Positions 3,879-29,159 of a stretch of DNA of 55,991 nt are shown one piece after another. The position numbers and the translations under genes were made by a program. The notes under the pieces are model-generated. The model was given only the letters and a program-made list of their open reading frames with translations. It ran no database searches and was not told the DNA's origin. Origin of the DNA: Halobacillus massiliensis (GTDB taxonomy: Bacteria > Bacillota > Bacilli > Bacillales > Halobacillaceae); NCBI RefSeq assembly GCF_900166625.1, contig NZ_LT800499.1:874513-930503 (forward strand). The letters are read 5' to 3'. Position 1 is the first letter of the stretch. Every line of letters starts with the position of its first letter.

Positions 3879-6509
3879 TTGATTATTAACCAAATTTCTA
3901 ATGGAGGATTTGAAACCGGGATACTTGCTCCTTGGGTAGGTTTTAATGCTTCCGTCACGCCAGCGGCCAGTCACACAGGTGCTTTTAGCGCACTTTTAGC
4001 ACCTTCTGCCAGTTTAGCAACTATCTCTCAAACTTTTCCTATCAGTGAAGGAGAGAATTTTGAATTTCTTTCATCCTTTGCAAGAACGAATAGTAATCCC
4101 AGCCCTCCAATATCAATCACTTTGGTCTATTATAATGCAAGTTTTAATCCATTAAGTGTAGGTTTAAGTATAAATATCCCTTCTAACAGACTTTCAGCGG
4201 TTGGGGAGTGGCTGGAAGTGTATGAAACTTCTACTCCAGCGCCAGCCGGCACAGCGAGCGGAGTTTTGTCTATTCGAAAGCTTCCTCAAGCAGGAGCATC
4301 TAACGTTTATGTAGATGATGTTGCTTTATTAACGGTTGAAGGTACAGGTACCACTGGGCCGACAGGAGCGACAGGAGCCACCGGAGTCACGGGAGTCACG
4401 GGAGCCACGGGAGTAACTGGAGCCACGGGAGCTACAGGAGCTACGGGAGCTACCGGAGTAACAGGAGCAACAGGAGCAACAGGAGCAACAGGAGCTACAG
4501 GAGCTACGGGAGCTACAGGAGCTACGGGAGCAACAGGAGCAACAGGAGCAACAGGAGCCACGGGAGCGACGGGAGTCACAGGAGCCACCGGAGTCACGGG
4601 AGCCACGGGAGCCACAGGAGCCACGGGAGCGACTGGAGCGACAGGAGCGACAGGAGTCACCGGAGCCACGGGAGTCACCGGAGCGACAGGAGTCACCGGA
4701 GCCACGGGAGTCACCGGAGCGACAGGAGTCACCGGAGCCACGGGAGCCACCGGGGCGACAGGAGTCACGGGAGCCACCGGAGTCACGGGAGCGACAGGAG
4801 CCACGGGAGTTACCGGAGCGACAGGAGCCACCGGAGCGACAGGAGCCACCGGAGCGACAGGAGTCACCGGAGCCACGGGAGTCACCGGAGCCACGGGAGT
4901 CACCGGAGCGACAGGAGCCACGGGAGCCACGGGAGCCACCGGAGCCACGGGAGCGACGGGAGCCACGGGAGCCACCGGAGCCACGGGAGCGACGGGAGCC
5001 ACGGGAGCCACCGGGGCGACAGGAGTCACGGGAGTCACCGGAGCGACAGGAGTCACCGGAGCGACAGGAGTCACCGGAGCGACAGGAGTCACCGGAGCCA
5101 CGGGAGCCACCGGGGCGACAGGAGTCACGGGAGTCACCGGAGCGACAGGAGTCACCGGAGCGACAGGAGTCACCGGAGCGACAGGAGTCACCGGAGCCAC
5201 GGGAGTCACCGGAGCGACAGGAGCCACCGGAGTCACAGGAGCCACCGGAGTAACCGGGGCGACAGGGGTCACCGGAGCGACAGGAGCAACAGGACCAACT
5301 GGTATTACCGAAGCAACTATCTCCAATGTCGGCCCTAATGTTAGCTCTCAATTTAATGAGTTAAGAACAGCTCAGCGAACCCCTTTAATAGAATTAACGT
5401 CTGTTTATGGGTTATCAGATTTAAGAGATGTCACCGAAGTAGGCGGAAGTGCTACGGTGGGAACGAATAACACTGAATTTGTTTTAAGCACAACAGCGAA
5501 CGGTGCAGACTTTGCTGTGCTTCAAAGCGCCGAAAGAGGAAGGTATCAATCAGGTTTTGCTGCAGAATCGGGAATTGGAGTCAGGCTGCCTACTCCTCCT
5601 ACTGGAGACCAAGTTGTAAGGTGGGGAATGTTCGATGATGAAAATGGTTTCTTCTTTGGCCAAAATGTAGCAAACGGAATTTTTATTGGAATAAGAAGAG
5701 GAGGTACGGACACCCTTATTCAGCAAAATTCATGGAATGTTGATCCACTTGATGGCACAGGTCCTAGTGGGGTGACTCTAGATCTGTCGGAAGGTAATAT
5801 TTTTGAGATTGACTTCACTTGGTATGGGTATGGGGTTATCCAGTTTAGTGTAGTAGTACCGAATCCTGTTACTTTAGCTCAGGAAGTTGTAACGGTTCAC
5901 CGCTATTCCCCAACCTCGCAGACGAGTGTTGAAGACCCTAATCTTCCAGTTAGGGCAGAAGTGAATAATGAAGGAACAGCTTCTGCGTTAACATTGTTTG
6001 TTGGAGGAAGACAGTATTCCATTATTGGAAATTATGACCCTGTATTTAGGGTGACTTCAGAAAGAAGGCAAATTACAGCAACCACTACACTGACTCCAAT
6101 GATATCCTTCCAGAGAAAAACCGAATTTCCGGCGGGTTCTGGAAGACCTAATTCAGTGAGTGTTGAATTAGAAGGAATTGATCTAGTAACTCAGGAAGAT
6201 ATATACTATCAAATCATTCTTGGGGGAACTCTCAACGGGTCGTTTGTAGATTTCCCAACAGCCACGACCAATATTCCGACTGACGAAACGGCTCTTCAGG
6301 TTAATATTACGTCCACTACGATTTCGGGAGGGCAAGTTGTACTGCAAGGACTTGCAGCAGCAGCTGCCACAGGCAATAACCGCGTTTTAGCTTCTGCCTC
6401 CCTGCTTGACTTTGAACTTCCAGATTTTGAAACTATAACATTAGCAGTGGGTACCTTTGCGGGCTCTGGGTCAGTAGTAGCAACCTTTAGGGTGACGGAA
6501 GAATGGTAA
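3879..6509 (+). CDS. Giant collagen-like surface protein with NTTRR-F1-type N-terminus and virion-like C-terminus
   Basis: The 876-residue product has three parts. Residues about 1-155 resemble the NTTRR-F1 domain that precedes repetitive regions (NGGFETG near the start, then a beta-rich fold). Residues about 157-477 are 107 uninterrupted Gly-X-Thr triplets (4347-5309), X being Ala or Val except at the ends. Residues about 478-876 form a globular domain closely related to the next gene, with [19 protein letters not shown] and [12 protein letters not shown] motifs. It has no classical signal peptide or LPXTG. TTG at 3879 is chosen because AAAGGATGTGAG precedes it and the paralogue at 26160 starts at the same point with ATG. 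Trimeric filament on the cell or spore surface is inferred; threonines could carry sugars. Confidence 0.85.
4347..5309 (+). repeat. Collagen repeat, 107 tandem 9-bp units
   Basis: The stretch is 963 bases of nine-base units encoding Gly-X-Thr with no interruption. Units use GGA mostly for Gly and GCN or GTN for X. Higher-order blocks, such as GGAGTCACCGGAGCGACA in tandem near 5035-5100, show recent internal duplication. Such repeats change copy number easily and are prone to assembly error. Confidence 0.95.

Positions 6510-29159: not shown

Follow-up and report, generated by a model that had tools for sequence, protein, structure and literature searches.

The window analysed here is a 55,991-nucleotide stretch of the Halobacillus massiliensis genome (contig NZ_LT800499.1) that holds five plus-strand genes for putative surface proteins, henceforth referred to as genes A to E, which are assembled from a small set of modules. 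An original prediction, made from the letters alone, had placed these genes and named their modules; the open reading frames (ORFs) were confirmed at these places, and a domain search matched the models NF033675, phrog_1645 and PF11962 with E-values that are not chance. Gene A (3879..6509), with a TTG start codon that is backed by the same ribosome-binding context ahead of gene E, encodes an N-terminal anchor domain (3879..4346; NF033675, E 3.5e-53, 179.9 bits), a collagen shaft (4347..5309) of 107 Gly-X-Thr triplets with Thr as the third residue in 107/107, and a virion-like tip (5310..6509; phrog_1645, E 7e-62). Gene B (6541..7746) consists of the virion-like domain alone (phrog_1645, E 2.1e-52) and is 65-66% identical to the gene A tip, the two being the second and first copies of a tandem pair. 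Genes C (21972..23390; alternative start, GTG at 21951) and D (23645..25687) each encode a short basic N-terminus, a SHAEG (YadA-type) head and a Peptidase_G2 chaperone domain, the latter at 22743..23351 in gene C (PF11962, E 4.7e-38; motif A/DYAELFE, the slash marking the cleavage point) and at 25013-25630 in gene D (PF11962, E 3.8e-39; motif A/NYAEMFE, with Asp changed to Asn). Gene E (26160..29159) encodes an anchor (26160..26627; NF033675, E 3.3e-50, 170.2 bits), a short collagen stretch (26628..26717; 10 triplets by pattern, scoring 19.9 bits against a Pfam threshold of 27.2), a SHAEG head (26718..28577) and Peptidase_G2 (28578..29120; PF11962, E 6.3e-29; motif C/DYAEMFE). The heads of genes C, D and E hold 10, 23 and 37 SHAEG-like repeats, respectively, and open with a cap that reads CIRTNPANGC in gene E and is of the same type in genes C and D. 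Pfam YadA_head (PF05658) was above threshold in gene D (30.9 bits) and gene E (31.2 bits) and was not listed for gene C, the head of which is, over the aligned parts, 62% identical to that of gene D and 52% identical to that of gene E. Three of the five products (P0002, P0003 and P0005) gave no anti-phage defence match in PADLOC.

As had been claimed, the N-terminal domains of genes A and E are nearly the same (77% identity over 154 residues) and the remainder is unrelated, with no match across the last 390 nt. The resemblance includes DNA ahead of the genes, a block upstream of gene A (3782..3878, plus strand) being common to one upstream of gene E (26061..26159, plus strand). The shared domain is NCBIfam NTTRR-F1, for which both genes exceed the curated cut-off of 70 bits and whose name presumably denotes a domain N-terminal to a triplet-repeat region. 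Such a position is clear in gene A, while gene E has its 10 triplets below the Pfam threshold; in both, collagen lies between the N-terminal anchor and a C-terminal domain, as in BclA-type nap glycoproteins. The idea of a composite family with one common anchor thus held for different shafts and tips joined to a shared domain, but of the five proteins just two have this domain, the short basic N-terminus taking its place in genes C and D and gene B having none. The five genes are likewise real but part of a larger set, since the genome contains ten anchor genes, the two in the window and eight elsewhere, two pairs of copies included. The structural model of the gene E anchor (pLDDT 96.9) is closest to CBM16 (2zex, E 6.7e-9, TM 0.78), and the anchor fold, going by this model, is a carbohydrate-binding-type jelly roll, which is no known trimeriser. 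Collagen, YadA-type heads and phi29-type chaperone domains form trimers; the claim that all modules are of trimer-forming kinds was nevertheless left unsupported, because the anchor is such a jelly roll and occurs in only two of the five proteins, and the virion-like tip was not confidently folded. Its AlphaFold model had a mean pLDDT of 51.8 (10 sequences) and gave no PDB match at E <= 0.001, and its matches were not used.

The anchor is unevenly distributed: no NTTRR-F1 genes were found in ten congeners, only two other genomes in a survey of the family (44 genomes) were above cut-off, both from one other genus, and a phylum survey found it above cut-off in 5/398 genomes. Five plasmid records carry it (Priestia four, Niallia one). 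Two loci are unusual in their arrangement. At L024 (genome C2:2848000-2867900) four anchor genes follow each other as A-B-B-A, interspersed with a repeated 154-aa ORF and an ORF that by eye looks integrase-like, and a CotZ-family coat gene lies ~7 kb beyond these anchor genes. At L189 (G587) the anchor gene adjoins two further collagen-like ORFs, and the site resembles the clpA-D locus of Bacillus amyloliquefaciens FZB42.

We gathered 93 non-redundant anchor proteins from relatives, 60 of which have a usable tip (the other 33 being cut by a contig or locus end in 15 cases, with a tip of <60 aa in 13, masked in three and frame-lost in two). Single-linkage clustering of blastp matches at 1e-4 sorted the 60 tips into 15 clusters, some of which may be related: C1q-like (22), YPP (10), virion-like (6), FEWGEE (5), LNFQV (5), propeller (3) and nine singletons, the names C1q-like, YPP, FEWGEE and LNFQV having been assigned by eye. 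When ten anchor proteins were scanned with Pfam, only the propeller-tipped one gave a tip match. Gene E has the sole SHAEG and Peptidase_G2 tip among the 60. A tree of the anchors, which has long branches and unsettled bootstrap values, sorts mainly by genome, and most tip types are scattered over it: virion-like tips require 6 changes in 6 rows (6 forced by branches starred in the tree), FEWGEE tips 5 in 5 (4 forced), propeller tips 3 in 3 (2 forced), YPP tips 10 in 10 (5 forced) and C1q-like tips 16 in 22 (11 forced). Two results speak against free exchange of tips. LNFQV tips follow the anchor tree (one change, one group), and over all 15 tip labels we counted 31 changes against a shuffled mean of 35.9, a value as low being reached in 1/200 shuffles, so that tips are somewhat clustered on the anchor tree and not random. 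Near-copies alone can suffice to produce such clustering.

The virion-like tips allowed the histories of anchor and tip to be compared directly. This domain occurs as two tandem copies in all eight loci compared (a ninth match is the same Metabacillus indicus region), and in six of the eight the first copy is in frame behind an anchor and collagen; at L042 the anchor ORF is frame-lost, at L032 too little contig precedes the pair for a judgement, and at L030 the locus ends within the second copy. Within the clade that includes the window the fused copies form one group and the separate copies its sister (84/78 and 96/94), which indicates an old pair whose members were inherited jointly. Approximately unbiased (AU) tests were done on seven of the eight pair loci (in the eighth, the nearest anchor belongs to another gene), with clades that were named after the larger trees had been seen. 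The gene A anchor grouped with Halobacillus-type and Jeotgalibacillus anchors (91/92, unstarred), and its placement with the Metabacillus-type set was rejected (AU p 0.0039). The gene A tip grouped with the Metabacillus-type set (100/100) and its other placement was rejected (AU p 1.2e-6), and the same placement was found for gene B (alternative rejected, AU p 2.5e-4). The histories of anchor and tip in gene A are therefore in conflict. As to the pair itself, the gene A tip is one copy and gene B the second, so that the tip is probably a two-protein assembly. Two further loci bear on the virion-like domain. In M. indicus (L042, 4936-7139) the anchor-collagen ORF loses its frame in the collagen repeats just ahead of the tip, owing either to phase variation or to a sequencing error. 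On a plasmid of Priestia megaterium SR7 (L237, 7719-9682) two ORFs under the virion-like match adjoin genes of DUF4183, the family of the F-ENA subunit, and are near YjcZ sporulation genes.

The DNA itself shows where the modules are joined. In ten within-genome pairs, hand-picked among close paralogues, homology runs from 67-350 bp upstream of the start, across the anchor and into the collagen, and in nine of the ten it stops inside the collagen or no more than a base from where this ends; in the tenth pair (2855 vs 969) a propeller tip is common to both genes. For gene A, homology starts at -97 against gene E, where it ends inside the short collagen of the latter, and at -248 against the anchor gene at genome C2 ~398 kb. 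Between more distant paralogues it begins only near the start codon, or is broken or absent. Fourfold sites in the anchor differ at 1/62 positions between two differently tipped genes of Amphibacillus cookii and at 30/49 between genes A and E, which indicates that the exchange was recent there and is old here. Overall, the AU tests, the tip changes on the anchor tree and the DNA breakpoints bear out the proposal that modules have been exchanged, and exchange is seen in other genera too. We considered whether gene conversion could explain these data instead, the anchor-tip pairs being old and the paralogous anchors having been homogenised within each genome later. Anchors do cluster mainly by genome, and repeats favour conversion. 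However, a conversion of the anchor itself swaps the anchor relative to the tip, and any homogenisation of the gene A and E anchors is not recent, because 30/49 of their fourfold sites differ. Conversion would also need the gain of the pair from another lineage, since the gene A tip pair groups with the Metabacillus-type set whereas the tips of the Halobacillus-type relative lie elsewhere. We therefore regard conversion in place of tip exchange as unlikely.

The nature of the anchor points to the surface on which these proteins are displayed. A plasmid search with the gene E anchor led to pBM500 of P. megaterium QM B1551, on which gene BMQ_RS26415, annotated NTTRR-F1, encodes 954 aa with 220 triplets, matching the published size and GXT repeat number of BclA1 (954 aa, 220 GXT repeats and a 159-residue N-terminal domain; PMC4674009). 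The anchors of genes A and E are 41% and 36% identical to the N-terminal domain of BclA1 over 142 aa and, as judged from this alignment, the window anchor is homologous to its residues 1-159. According to the BclA1 report, these residues fused to green fluorescent protein (GFP) localise to the forespore, also in the absence of BxpB, and do not contain the motif known from B. anthracis; the nap of P. megaterium, which is localised at the pole, is ascribed there to BclA1 (Manetsberger et al. 2015, PMC4674009).

In a survey of the class, the only set against which SpoIVA was compared, 21/398 genomes carry NTTRR-F1 above cut-off and SpoIVA is present in 21/21 of these compared to 268/398 overall (p 1.9e-4, or 2.8e-4 without the organism's own genome, relatedness uncorrected); among the 44 class genomes with any anchor match at E <= 0.001, 42 have SpoIVA. 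The genome of H. massiliensis itself has three CotZ-family coat proteins. We next consider the DNA upstream of anchor genes, where the motif CATANNNTA, a sigma-K-like -10 box, is present within 220 bp in 56/92 anchor genes compared to 50/545 control ORFs of the same loci, some of which may not be genes or may be operon-internal. Shuffled anchor upstream stretches were used as a second control because the GC content differs (0.34 vs 0.40), and these contained the motif in a mean of 11.6 and at most 21 cases, while the reversed motif was found ahead of 12/92 anchor genes (11.7 in shuffles). Most of the boxes are 25-90 bp ahead of the start. Since the 92 upstream stretches belong to related genes, the promoter p-value is too small. 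Overall, the evidence points to the spore rather than the vegetative surface, a choice that the original prediction had not made, and the homologue data and promoter statistics together would place the window proteins there.

We accordingly weigh the reading that we consider quite probable, namely that the anchor proteins are a family of spore-surface fibres (exosporium or crust nap) with exchangeable tips. Several points have to be set against it. Genes A and E, which carry the anchor in the window, show degenerate -10 boxes only (CATATCTTT ahead of gene A, sigma-K-like, and CATATTTCT ahead of gene E), neither of which matches CATANNNTA, so that the case is weaker for these two individually; genes C and D carry CATANNNTG, one base off. 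A sigma-E-like pattern is also enriched (32/92 anchor genes vs 31/545 controls), and the acting sigma factor may thus be E or K. Genes B, C and D have no anchor. Two genomes with weak, below-cut-off anchor matches (G669 and G757) are outside the SpoIVA genomes. Concerning the homologue, the signal of the BclA1 N-terminal domain fused to GFP faded as spores matured, and a bclA1 null mutant was not obtained (PMC4674009). Finally, ClpB and ClpC of FZB42, which have predicted galactose-binding N-termini, are reported to have roles in the biofilm and in adhesion to roots, and some relatives may therefore act off the spore. The Clp proteins would fit a different reading, in which the same modular fibres are adhesins of growing cells or of the biofilm matrix, their anchor binding a cell-wall glycan; a carbohydrate-binding jelly roll would suit such a role, and the window also contains a gene cluster for a surface polysaccharide. 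The sporulation-type boxes enriched ahead of anchor genes, the co-occurrence with SpoIVA and the forespore localisation of the homologous BclA1 domain all argue against vegetative adhesins, which we think improbable.

The tips have relatives among phage proteins. Gene B is 36% identical to a protein of Sulfitobacter phage phiGT1 over 99% of its length and 30% identical to one of HGTV-1, and the two phage homologues that were examined adjoin portal, scaffold or prohead protease, and capsid genes. Peptidase_G2 of gene C matched solved preneck appendage proteins (3gqh, E 4.6e-28; 6qz9, E 1.6e-26), which we take to be those of phi29, and one solved preneck appendage C-terminal chain starts at the Asp of DFAEYFE. 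The cleavage chemistry of Peptidase_G2 involves the Asp after the cleavage point (DxAExFE), which is kept in genes C and E; the gene E chaperone domain probably cuts itself off the tip, and that of gene D, with Asn at this position, may fold without cutting. The gene C head gave a weak, composition-biased match to BpaC (7o23, E 5.7e-4). Peptidase_G2 is present in 16/299 genomes of the order, the organism's own included, and nine regions were fetched. Three of them (L226, L227 and L228) encode SHAEG together with Peptidase_G2 in a single ORF that lacks anchor and collagen, and L229 resembles the near-identical L228 but holds a stop; L230 has another N-terminus and a short collagen with Peptidase_G2, L232 and L233 have the Peptidase_G2 region in pieces, L231 is phage-like by eye, and in L234 neither a SHAEG nor a Peptidase_G2 motif was seen. 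The motif CATANNNTA is upstream in L226, L228 and L229. Since SHAEG with Peptidase_G2 also exists without an anchor, gene E joins anchor and collagen to a free-standing tip.

These relationships could be taken to mean that the virion-like domain, the SHAEG head and Peptidase_G2 are head and tail remnants of a prophage or defective phage, for which the matches to phrog_1645, phrog_4775 and phrog_25468, the portal and capsid genes beside phage homologues, the presence of the gene C domain in Bacillus and Staphylococcus phages and the phage-like L231, one of nine regions, would speak. This is very improbable, because none of 50,697 phage records matched the gene E anchor, the ten window neighbours that were searched include no capsid, portal or terminase gene, and the recognised neighbours among the ORFs listed at other pair loci are sugar and glycosyltransferase genes. 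Eight of these ten window neighbours have Pfam families (homocysteine methyltransferase, GNAT, 2-hydroxyacid dehydrogenase and beta-lactamase-type hydrolase among them) and two do not. A phage origin of the domains is likely, and a phage function is not likely.

Genes for sugar metabolism are found near the anchor genes. Around 67 anchor loci we counted UDP-sugar dehydrogenase at 14, DegT aminotransferase at 12, Gfo/Idh oxidoreductase at 11, hexapeptide acetyltransferase at 12 and a GT2 transferase at 17, compared to 0/36 for each family at control loci, a weak control that consists of unrelated contigs, mostly of other phyla. The 14 loci with UDP-sugar dehydrogenase include the window, where we take the match to be a gene of the polysaccharide cluster, far from genes A-E. 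NCBIfam matches of the sugar genes, nearly all below equivalog cut-offs, are compatible with a diacetamido-uronic acid pathway of the Wbp type. Together with the Thr in every gene A triplet, the sugar genes near anchors suggest that the collagen shafts are O-glycosylated on Thr; the absence of the four-gene sugar set beside the window genes counts against this here. Elsewhere in the window, a polysaccharide cluster (33592-52186) contains two CpsB/CapC genes and genes for a sulfotransferase, a UDP-sugar dehydrogenase, a heparinase II/III-like protein, an ATP-sulfurylase and a sulfate-type transporter, which suggests that it makes a sulfated polysaccharide. A BNR/sortilin-type propeller-repeat protein is encoded on the minus strand (17679-18596), between the two groups of surface genes.

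Taking the preferred reading of spore-surface fibres further, the proteins would probably be hair-like, and tip swapping would change what spores present to the outside. NTTRR-F1-headed proteins would be made by the mother cell during sporulation and brought to the forespore surface by the jelly roll; a triple helix of Gly-X-Thr collagen, whose Thr residues probably carry glycans, would serve as the shaft, and the C-terminal tip, adhesive or trimerising, would face outward. A new fibre would arise when the anchor-collagen cassette, often with its promoter region, joins another tip, with the junction within the collagen repeats or where they end. In the window, the gene A tip and gene B, two copies of a phage-head-related domain, may together cap one fibre, while in gene E the tip is a YadA-type head followed by a chaperone domain of the phage tail-spike kind, a combination also found separately as genes C and D.

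Fibres with one anchor and different tips are already known (BclA and F-Anchor; PMC11952670). BclA and F-Anchor proteins of the B. cereus group have a common N-terminal leader and collagen with differing C-terminal domains (C1q and DUF4183) on the spore surface, and BclA, F-Anchor and F-BclA share a short leader that docks on ExsF (PMC11952670). In genes A and E the position of the B. anthracis-type leader is filled by NTTRR-F1, a jelly roll of ~155 residues, and two C-terminal types in the B. cereus group, as described in the available part of that source (PMC11952670), compare to 15 clusters here. A filament of the F-ENA type was ruled out by 0 DUF4183 matches in the organism's own genome. 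P. megaterium BclA1 resembles the window proteins in its homologous N-terminal domain, GXT collagen and C-terminal tip (PMC4674009), but represents one tip type (YPP cluster) compared to the 15 clusters of the anchor family; the available part of the BclA1 paper compares BclA1 with B. anthracis BclA and does not mention tip exchange (PMC4674009). The phi29-type preneck appendage (gp12) shares the homologous C-terminal domain and cleavage motif with genes C and E, whereas here Peptidase_G2 is attached to a YadA-type head, in gene E also to collagen and an anchor, and has Asn in gene D. YadA-type trimeric autotransporters have similar head repeats (PF05658 in genes D and E), here in a Gram-positive host with a phage-type chaperone domain at the C-terminus. 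Head structural proteins of phages and haloviruses (phrog_1645) are homologous over the whole of gene B, whereas here two tandem copies occur, the first fused to anchor and collagen where visible. No paper was found for the term NTTRR-F1, and the matches listed, which leave the subscription literature mostly uncovered, included none that describes NTTRR-F1 as anchoring proteins to spores or that describes such tip exchange. Within the reach of the searches, what is new is an anchor of another kind that can be linked to a published localisation, how many tip types there are, an exchange that has been put to the test, and tips related to phage proteins.

A broader proposal, which we put forward tentatively and hold to be somewhat less than probable, is that NTTRR-F1 and collagen form a general display platform of endospores, the counterpart of the BclA leader, which carries domains taken over from phage virions and has its tips swapped across genera at collagen junctions to renew spore adhesion. 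For the family, NTTRR-F1, a bare model name in the sources searched, gains a likely function in spore targeting, and the trees and DNA breakpoints indicate how spore-surface fibres may gain new tips. For H. massiliensis, the spores are predicted to carry a two-protein tip of phage-head descent and a self-cleaving fibre of the tail-spike type. Spore display would also profit from a targeting domain of ~155 residues that does not depend on the B. cereus leader.

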